Assembly: GCF_022012415.1 (NCBI RefSeq)
Contig: NZ_JAKLTR010000001.1
Coordinates: 372,001-436,000 of the forward strand
DNA from: Terrimonas ginsenosidimutans
GTDB lineage: Bacteria > Bacteroidota > Bacteroidia > Chitinophagales > Chitinophagaceae
Direction: 5' to 3'
DNA: 64,000 bases
This document shows, piece by piece, positions 29,577 through 62,145 of the stretch (the first letter of the stretch is position 1; every line of letters starts with the position of its first letter). Under the pieces are notes generated by a model. The model did no database searches. It saw only the letters and a list, made by a program, of their open reading frames with translations, and had not been told where the DNA came from. Both the position numbers and the translations under genes were made by a program.

Positions 29577-29699
29577 ATATTGATACTGGCAAAGGTGTAA
29601 GTACCGGAGGCTTATGCGTTCTAGGGGGGGCGGTTGAGATTCCGTTGCGCGATACGATCCATTTACCGTCGCGCACGCAGAGTCATTCACTGCCGCGCG

Positions 29700-30005
29700 C
29701 GCAGGCCAGAAATGGGCATACGACAGCAACCGCATTGCTGCGTTTGACTGTCGTCGCCCACTTTTCAATTGTATCATTCCATATTTCCTATCTCATTCTT
29801 CCTTTTTTTGATCATAGATGAAATAAAAAAACGCACCGCCCTTTTCAGGACTGCCCTCCTCCACCAGTCCTGAAAATGACGGTGACTAAGAAATTTCTCT
29901 GTTGTAAAGATCACTTTATGCAAAAGGGAATCCATGGGAAAAACACAAGATCTGCCGGGAAAATAACGGGAGTATGACTGTGAATAAACGACCGGAAACA
30001 TAGTC
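29700..30005 (-). repeat. Interspersed repeat family copy on the minus strand
   Basis: Read on the minus strand, this region shares with the copy at 61655 the core GTTATTTTCCCGG, TTGTGTTTT, a TTTACAA...GAAATTT part, a hairpin with T-rich tail, and a tail with CAGTCAAAC followed by GCAGCAATG-CGGTT. It lacks the middle part found in the two plus-strand copies. The reading frame over it at 29774-30016 crosses the hairpin and is unlikely to be translated. Confidence 0.7.
29826..29884 (-). terminator. Hairpin and T run inside the minus-strand repeat copy
   Basis: The outer stem CACCG/CGGTG (29834-29838 with 29880-29884) encloses an 11-bp stem (29842-29852 with 29866-29876). On the minus strand an eight-T run follows. 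It has the shape of an intrinsic terminator but also corresponds to the hairpin of the other repeat copies. Confidence 0.65.
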
Positions 30006-30080
30006 GGAGAACTCATTCACCCAAATCTTGCGACTCATCCCTGACCTGGTCACGATCCAGTGCTATGCTTTGCGGAGGGA

Positions 30081-34404: not shown

Positions 34405-34905
34405 TGATGCGATTACACTTTTCTGTCTGTGCTGCCGTCGTTTTTCTCCCGGAATTTTACCGTTATTTTCTCCTGAGGTTTTGTGTTTTAACCTTGTCTT
34501 CGGCTTCGCGTTAGGCGATATTTACAAAAGGAAATTTCTGTATTTGCCGTCCGTCTTCAGGCGGGCCAGGGCGTCGGGAGGTCCGCCGGGATGGGCGGCA
34601 ATTTTTATATTGGCCGAAATGGCCGGAAACATGAAAAAGAAAGAAATGAAAAGATAAAGGGAAAGAAAATATAAAATGAAGGTTCTATTGGAAATGGAAG
34701 CAGTAGCAGGGAACAAGGTTATGCCCGGCTATACATTTTCTTTGGAAAGACCTTTAGGTACAGGTTATACAGCTCTTAGGTTTTGGAAAAGAAGGTAGAG
34801 AGAGAGACTGTCTTTCCCGGCCCGGGGTTTAGGGAAGGTGGGTTCCGAAATATGAGTGCGTCGTCGAATTAGCGCTGGCCTGGTGCCGGTTAGCCTGGTA
34901 TGTGG
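34405..34905 (+). repeat. Interspersed repeat family copy (A)
   Basis: Shared with the copy at 61655: TTCTGTCYGTG, a pyrimidine-rich head, CGTTATTTTC, TTTTGTGTTTT, GGCGATATTTACAAA, a hairpin of TTGCCGTCC with GGGCGGCAA (34544-34552 and 34593-34601), then TTTTTATATTGG, a purine-rich AAAGAAAG part, and the tail CCCGG...GGGAAGG...TGAGTGCG...CCGGTTAG. A frame shift breaks the possible reading frame, so it is unlikely to be protein-coding. Confidence 0.75.
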
Positions 34906-49989: not shown

Positions 49990-50180
49990 GAGAGTGGTAA
50001 TAAACAGCATTCGCCTGTTATTTTCCCGTTTTTATTCGTTTTTTTCTCGAGGTTTTCCTTCTCCTGTGATCGATATTTGGATTGTTAGAGATCTTGATCC
50101 TATTGGGAGAAGGTTTCTGCTTATTTATTGCAATAGATAACGTTGAGTTTTTAAGCCAGATGGCTGTCAAAGTTGGAGGG
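49990..50180 (+). repeat. Possible diverged copy of the interspersed repeat (C)
   Basis: The part around 50015-50080 shares GTTATTTTCCCG, TTTTCTCGAGGTTTTCC (like copy A) and CGATATTT with the other copies, and GCTGTCAAAGTTGGAGGGAGTTAG resembles the tail. No clear hairpin is seen, and the similarity is weak. Confidence 0.35.
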
Positions 50181-50279
50181 AGTTAGAACTGTTTGGATTG
50201 GTGTATGTCTTAAATGTCATTTGCCAGGCCGGGTGTTGTTATTACACCCCCTCTCAGACCAACTTTCGGTGGTGGTGGC

Positions 50280-50301
50280 GGGGGAGGGAGGGCCCAAAGG
50301 G
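50280..50301 (+). other. G-quadruplex motif
   Basis: Runs of G at 50280-50284, 50286-50288, 50290-50292 and 50299-50301 with short loops (1, 1 and 6 nt) fit a canonical quadruplex pattern on the plus strand. Confidence 0.6.
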
Positions 50302-50459
50302 CGGAAAGGGTGAAGGCAAGAGGCGTGGTCCCCATTAGGAAGCCCTCACGGCCCTCCAGGAAATTTAACCTCCCTCAAATAACCTCTCCCTCTGCCAGCC
50401 AAGACACCCACCGCCCTGCCTATGACTTCCTATTCCCCATTTCCTCCTCCCCCAAGAAC

Positions 50460-61654: not shown

Positions 61655-62145
61655 TTGTGATTTTATTATTTCTGTCCGTGAACCTCTTCGCTTTTTAATC
61701 GTATTCCTTACGTTATTTTCCCGGATTATTTTGTGTTTTCCCCTTGGCTTACCCTATCGCTATGAGCGATATTTACAAAGAGATATCTCAATTTAGTTGC
61801 CTCCGCTTACAGCGGATGGGAGGGTGGGTGCCCGTCGTAGGCGGAGGCATTATTTTATATTATTGGAAAATAAAAAACAGAGACGATGAGAAGATAAAAA
61901 GAAAGAAAAACAGGAAAATGAAGCTGCCTTAATAGCGGCAGGATGACATGCGAACATGAATGATCGTATTCAGTTAGCAAGTACTCTGTCAACGACGCCC
62001 GCTTCATCATCAGCACATGATCATGCGCTGATCTGAAAAGAAAGAAAACACTTTTTGACCCGGGCCGGGATTGGGAAGGTTGTGTTTAAATATTTGAGTG
62101 CGCAGTCAAACTGTGACCGGCAGCAATGACCGGTTAGGGGCGTTT
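61655..62145 (+). repeat. Interspersed repeat family copy (B)
   Basis: Like copy A at 34405: TTTCTGTCCGTG head, CGTTATTTTCCCGG, TTTTGTGTTTTCC, GAGCGATATTTACAAA, a hairpin TGCCTCCGC/GCGGAGGCA (61798-61806 with 61841-61849), then TTATTTTATATTATTGG, a purine-rich part with AAAAGAAAGAAAAAC, and a tail with CCCGGGCCGGGATTGGGAAGG, TTGAGTGCGCAGTCAAAC and ACCGGTTAGG. A 62-residue frame lies over it (61744-61932). Confidence 0.78.
61798..61849 (+). repeat. Conserved-position hairpin of repeat copy B
   Basis: TGCCTCCGC and GCGGAGGCA pair perfectly over 9 bp around a 34-nt loop. The hairpins of the other copies (34544-34601 and 29834-29884) have other sequences but similar places and pairing. Confidence 0.7.

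Follow-up and report, generated by a model that had tools for sequence, protein, structure and literature searches.

The window, a 64,000-nucleotide stretch of the Terrimonas ginsenosidimutans genome, carries four copies of one repeat family (Table 1). Copy B, the one under study, begins with a head that contains two direct repeats and a promoter-like box. Next come a predicted small RNA whose hairpin exposes a G-rich loop, a purine-rich stretch, and a tail. The predicted RNA folds at -34 kcal/mol (z -3.86), and 0 of 200 shuffled versions fold as well. The tail resembles, by eye only, a second hairpin of the major subfamily described below. Folding of the G-type copy is weaker, with a z of only -1.76. 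An earlier note on this DNA had described common blocks in copies A and B and had counted three or four copies; the blocks lie where it placed them in both copies, and the count is four.

Table 1. Copies of the repeat family in the window and the features of copy B
Feature	Position	Strand	Remarks
Copy B	61655-62145	+	Minor subfamily
Copy B, direct repeats GTTATTTTCCC and (T)GTGTTTTCCCC, 21 bp apart	61712..61743	+	Probable activator binding sites
Copy B, CCTTGG, at the place of the -33 element	61742..61747	+	Role suggested by the Bacteroidota promoter layout, from the portion of PMC7366714 available
Copy B, GATATTTA, -7-like box (consensus TAnnTTTG)	61768..61775	+	One base farther from box 2 than in most copies
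Copy B, predicted small RNA: leader, hairpin 1 (~61798-61850) with G-rich loop, T-rich end	61780..61864	+	Fold and subfamily covariation
Copy B, purine-rich stretch 3' of hairpin 1	61880..61945	+	Homologous place in other copies
Copy B, tail: CCGGGCCGGGATTGGGAAGG and GAGTGCGCAG..CCGGTTAG	62060..62139	+	Sequence
Copy A, minor subfamily; hairpin 1 at ~34544-34602	34405..34905	+	BLAST; fold z -4.05
Major-subfamily copy; hairpin 1 at 29834-29884, letter-perfect	29653..30019	-	BLAST, covariance model; fold z -5.49
G-type copy: shared head, ~200-nt body, GGTGGCGGGGGAGGG at 50274-50288	49999..50310 (right end approximate)	+	Covariance model weak, E 0.086

How many copies does the whole genome (G000; 7,144,125 bases in 64 contigs) hold? 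BLAST with copy B finds at least 41 places, itself included (best 40 of 66 candidates scored), copy A being among the matches at E = 3.9e-5, and BLAST with a major-type copy finds at least 40 (best 40 candidates scored). A covariance model of the head and hairpin 1 finds 43 places at E <= 1.2e-4 (best 150 of 2,190 candidates scored) and five further ones at E 0.04-0.53; it was built from 23 copies that are themselves among the 43, so that their scores are given by construction. A head pattern of fixed spacing, allowing three mismatches at most, occurs at 44 places, its reversed form at none, and an exact G-rich word occurs eight times here and in none of 58 other genomes searched. BLAST, the covariance model, the G-rich word, and one near match together yield a list of about 51 copies; a single place with the promoter only and two fragments cut by contig ends stand outside it. 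The repeat family is real, far beyond chance, and the genome-wide profile search that the earlier note had called for bears out its expectation of a high-copy family.

The listed copies fall into a major subfamily (34 copies), a minor one (6, including A and B), two intermediates, and nine G-type copies, a set found via the G-rich word. Copies A and B, described in the earlier note, belong to the small subfamily of six; the main one has a different hairpin. The copies are mostly intergenic. The stricter statement that all of them are holds for open reading frames longer than 135 aa, none of which lies over the core in 35 copies, but not for those of 60-135 aa, which overlap the core in 28 of the 35. 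These short frames run in several phases, none common to all 35 copies. A peptide-coding reading was rejected, since none of the frames stays open in every copy and an A run varies in length.

The head is promoter-like in its geometry. Its two boxes lie 21 bp apart, gap-free, in all 23 rows of alignment A1, and the distance from box 2 to the motif GATNTTTR is constant in 21 of these rows, being one base longer in copy B and one other copy (L020). Bacteroidota promoters, in the available part of a published account, have TTTG near -33 and TAnnTTTG at -7 (PMC7366714), and the layout of the head fits such a promoter with a degenerate -33 element (CCWTGG) and putative activator sites upstream. LytTR regulators, as described in the accessible portion of another account, mostly bind repeats of 9-11 nt with a spacer of 11-13 nt (PMC4847170). 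The 21-bp period of the boxes fits LytTR spacing, which would make a protein of this type a candidate activator; the genome has 56 LytTR matches, none of them tied to the boxes. At L211 and L213, in two further MAGs, box 2 and the -7 motif alone precede other genes, a hint that the activator may have a wider regulon. A weak head-like match in the own genome (L127, C64:82383, E 0.04) lies upstream of a gene start and is without the RNA part; it is possibly another target of the activator.

Just downstream of the head lies a block that is almost invariant among the major copies. Hairpin 1 has the stem CACCGTC..GGCGGTG and the loop GGTGGAGGAGGG, and is followed by a run of 7-8 T, a purine-rich stretch, and hairpin 2. 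Among the 34 major copies, counted without bias from their sequences, the hairpin is exact in 32, the leader in 32, and both in 30. The other measurements use a set of 30 major copies chosen by the exact first 15 leader bases, the constancy of those 15 being by construction. Mean pairwise difference in this set is 0.27 at -110 to -60, 0.13 in the head, and 0.000 (gaps ignored) at positions 0 to 66; farther on, the purine stretch again has 0.13, hairpin 2 has 0.042, and the tail reaches 0.35. At the rate of the head and on a star-like tree, about 130 substitutions would be expected in the block (30 lineages, 67 sites, half of 0.13). The 30 copies contain no substitution there and one deleted base. 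The -7-like box ends exactly 4 bases 5' of the block in 30/30 major copies (five minor copies, placed by the -7 motif itself, were excluded from this count), and a run of 7-8 T closes it in all 30. Because the block starts 4 bases past a -7-like box and ends at a T run, it is read here as a predicted transcript of ~77 nt between a putative promoter and a putative intrinsic terminator.

Might the elements be simply terminators or insulators between genes, with no product acting in trans? They do combine a hairpin with a T run and are placed between genes, and 7 of 26 clear settings are convergent as against 4 divergent, a weak lean. Repeats of this sort would have no need of a conserved upstream promoter or a constant loop, however, and the orientation of the copies is mixed and the G-type copies are without a clean T run; we regard this reading as quite unlikely. 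A leader acting in cis was also considered. Of the right-hand genes of 30 copies, 11 run away from the element, 17 run towards it, and 2 are unclear; the cis leader was rejected on these counts.

What does selection act on, the DNA or an RNA? In the minor subfamily the letters of hairpin 1 vary and the stem is kept, with G-rich loops of varied sequence. Alignment A2 joins five minor rows to one major row that is two columns out of register; 9 of its 18 pairs are changed on both sides and 85% of cells are paired. No shuffle out of 500 reaches any of five measures, and slid versions are at most 53% paired. In the five minor rows by themselves, both sides have changed in 7 of 18 pairs, though copy A alone accounts for five of these; 84 of the 90 cells are paired. 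Two more alignments (A3 and A4) were left uncounted, copy A being out of register in them. Folded as RNA, all ten distinct forms of hairpin 1 are more stable as the plus strand, which has 34 G-U pairs to the 2 of the minus. A palindrome kept as DNA is expected to be free of strand bias, so the G-U asymmetry speaks for RNA. Stem covariation and one-strand G-U tolerance therefore make RNA the level seen by selection, and we consider a function of the family at the RNA level highly probable. The suggestion of a structured RNA, one of two options in the earlier note, finds good support in the covariation, the one-strand G-U pairs, and the way a promoter-like box and a terminator-like T run bound the constant block. 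Rfam 15 has no match in the window at gathering score; for eight loci searched at E <= 1 it gives two tRNA matches outside the element, and two hits that fall far below gathering score.

Conservation does not end with the T run. Pairwise difference in hairpin 2, which lies 141-187 bases on, is just 4% in the set of 30 major copies, and the plus strand of this hairpin is the more stable in 15 of 16 distinct forms (G-U pairs, 13 versus 2). Because conservation thus passes the T run, with the same G-U asymmetry, a longer RNA through hairpin 2 may matter. Farther along, between roughly +190 and +440 counted from the start of the leader, major copies (L007, for example) carry variable numbers of ~25-bp GATC-bearing, GCGC-rich repeats; degenerate words resembling AACCTATGG and AAACTTTT come next, and the end is C-rich. 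The minor subfamily has the tail described in the earlier note. The T run is not clean in minor and G-type copies, compared with 7-8 T after the hairpin in each of the 30 major copies examined. The nine G-type copies have a similar head and a body of ~200 nt with a G-rich element around GGCGGGGGAGGG; RNAalifold gives no consensus fold for G-type bodies, and their folding z is modest (mean -1.10 plus, -0.75 minus, 24 bodies). In one minor copy (L028, at ~255.6-255.8 kb of own-genome contig C3), a stretch of ~180 bp with inverted ends of 11 bp, GCTGGTTATAG / CTATAACCAGC, interrupts the repeat and looks like a small mobile element in its own right.

The G-rich loops were scored for the quadruplex potential of their sequence. 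Four runs of two or more G are present on the plus strand of 34 of 35 own major and minor copies, versus 9.9% of background tiles, and of all 15 copies from three other genomes; on the minus strand the pattern is found in 0/35 and 0/15. The G-type set of ten (nine own copies plus a G336 locus counted in the other-genome set as well) has it in 10/10 on the plus strand, by construction, and in 2/10 on the minus. The three-quartet (three-G) pattern occurs in 0/35 own major and minor copies, 8/15 copies from other genomes, and 5/10 of the G-type. The major loop has a mean G4Hunter score of 0.92, short of the 95th percentile of the background (1.20), so a quadruplex there is only a possibility.

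The same G runs lead to a different interpretation, a recombination site coupled to transcription. A promoter-driven G-quadruplex or R-loop on the G-rich non-template strand would start gene conversion and so keep the hairpin identical, as at pilE of Neisseria gonorrhoeae, where, in the part of the account available, a promoter likewise drives a non-coding RNA at a G-rich site (PMC3547852). Besides this precedent and the strand-specific G runs, the module distances are in keeping with it: across 26 major copies they are uncorrelated (r -0.24 to 0.19, 1 of 10 comparisons at p < 0.05), as if pieces had been exchanged, or as if the tree were star-like. Such a lack of correlation would be expected from either a star-like burst or exchange between copies. 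It appears only when the four most divergent copies are dropped, however; in all 30 the distances correlate (r 0.31-0.56, 9 of 10 comparisons at p < 0.05). Conservation also comes in islands (head, hairpin 1, hairpin 2) with sharp promoter and terminator edges and no single smooth peak, the major loop permits two quartets only, the minor subfamily is not homogenised, and covariation and G-U asymmetry point to selection on RNA. pilE, moreover, is a single locus by a pilin gene with recombination in cis, as far as the available text goes (PMC3547852), whereas dozens of loci with RNA-strand covariation are found here. We hold recombination to be a rather unlikely explanation of the family.

Has the family spread as a small non-autonomous mobile element, MITE-like and served by a transposase in trans? 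This was the other option of the earlier note, and many copies do lie between unrelated genes, two are cut by contig ends, and most relatives have no detected copy at the sensitivity used. Flanks of 30 copies give no target-site duplication signal, however (longest flank-shared word 6.27 own versus 6.45 cross), although a short duplication could escape this comparison because the 3' ends are ragged. Heads and tails are not complementary either (scores of 17.0 own, 17.8 cross, and 17.0 shuffled); a long-range head-tail pairing that was convincing by eye in a few copies was rejected on these scores. Mapping of the ends, proposed earlier as a check, gave a fairly constant 5' edge that alignments rarely pass (~-142) and a ragged 3' edge. 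A promoter, a terminator, and constraint on the RNA strand would be unneeded in such an element. With neither a duplication signal nor a head-tail inverted repeat, we judge the mobile element unlikely.

Where else is the family found? Among 394 genomes of the taxonomic family, the head pattern occurs 44 times in the own genome, 14 times in a genome of another genus (G336), and once each in G001 and G264. The reversed pattern is absent from G000 and G336 but occurs once in each of seven other genomes, and single head matches are therefore at noise level. The G001 match has a G-rich element at the expected distance and the G264 match has none; a BLAST-found copy in G361 is also followed by a G-rich element, and a second head-like match in G001 is not. 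All 14 copies read in G336 have the G-rich element. In a species-genome collection, a first exact pattern, too tied to the major and minor subfamilies, had no match. A looser exact pattern found five stretches there, of which three belong to MAG VBAT01 (isolate BD_4), identical in sequence to G336, and two have the promoter motif and no G-rich element. BLAST in 38 relatives and the covariance model in 293 other genomes of the family (best nine candidates per genome) found no copies, both being weak searches that missed the real G001 copy. A major-type copy had no match in plasmids and phages, nor had an exact pattern in viral contigs. Judged by sequence, the family is at least two genera wide, and its bodies differ between them. 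A recurring word around CCTGAGCGAAGCGAAGGA, present at one place in G336 (L193) and some fifteen in G177, seems unrelated to the repeat family.

Positional orthology was assessed by comparing 13 G336, two G001, and one G361 neighbourhoods with 49 own regions (939,426 bases, ~13% of the genome). One G336 copy (C45) shares its gap with an own G-type copy, in opposite orientation, and another (C56) is offset by one additional gene from an own major copy. Five more G336 neighbourhoods and that of G361 have some nearby gene that matches an own region, at other gaps, and six G336 and both G001 neighbourhoods have no gene matching the fetched own regions. An empty-site search in the first 400 kb of one G001 contig (~7%) gave a sole flank match, a 40-base piece of the L048 left flank. 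Copy positions are mostly not common to the own genome and G336, and positional shared ancestry is not established. A bolder idea, which we think improbable, is that of an RNA gene that spreads itself: the promoter, the G-loop RNA, and the repeat tail would copy themselves through the genomes of the bacterial family, and the RNA, letter-perfect at ~30 loci, would be needed for copying or concerted evolution, possibly via a transcription-dependent G-quadruplex. If true, this would be a new kind of bacterial repeat.

On balance we favor a paralogous, multi-copy family of trans-acting sRNAs, which seems to us probable, though with less assurance than an RNA-level function as such. In the proposed mechanism, (i) a regulator would bind the two boxes and help RNA polymerase start just past GATNTTTR. 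(ii) The major transcript would consist of a short leader, a hairpin of ~20 pairs, and the exposed G-rich loop, and the run of 7-8 U would terminate its transcription. (iii) Some 34 loci would yield identical RNA and so amount to one dosage-amplified regulator acting in trans. (iv) The G-rich loop, or the leader, would pair with target RNAs, or an RNA-binding protein would hold it. A crude test for complements of the loop or leader at start codons found no enrichment (10 of 524 versus 9 and 6 in controls; 32 versus 24 and 21). If the copies are transcribed, they would allow direct tests of why sRNA genes multiply (for dosage, for speed, or by selfish spread) and of what keeps such a number of copies identical, and the near-fixed promoter geometry offers a handle for finding the regulator.

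Several known systems invite comparison. The CsrB/RsmZ family has GGA-bearing hairpin loops, a likeness to the hairpins of the repeat. Titration of CsrA by such RNAs was rejected here: PF02599 has 0 matches in the own genome and matches in 3 of 14 control genomes. The Qrr sRNAs of Vibrio and the Cia-dependent sRNAs of pneumococcus are named in the consulted portion of the FopS account (PMC11697453). Their likeness to the present family is that several near-identical sRNAs depend on a single regulator. The promoters of the Cia-dependent csRNAs also carry direct repeats; Qrr and csRNAs come in 4-5 copies, belong to other phyla, and are not known to have a G-rich hairpin loop.

The known kind to which the proposed family belongs is that of paralogous sRNA families such as FopS of Bacteroides thetaiotaomicron, as far as the available part of its description allows (PMC11697453). 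Searches of an open-licence literature library listed no title on the repeat family itself. FopS comes from the same phylum and has many paralogous loci, mostly intergenic, with a conserved promoter, and its RNA of ~65-70 nt is short like the one predicted here. It pairs a 5' seed (R1') against susC mRNAs and has a canonical promoter and 14 members, whereas here the copies number ~51, a long hairpin exposes a G-rich loop, two additional boxes lie upstream, and a second hairpin is conserved, the two families being compared by description only. Copy number, G-loop hairpin, double-box promoter, and second hairpin are all absent from the FopS account in the portion consulted (PMC11697453). If the copies are transcribed, one genome devotes some fifty loci to a single RNA family, more than three times the 14 members of FopS.
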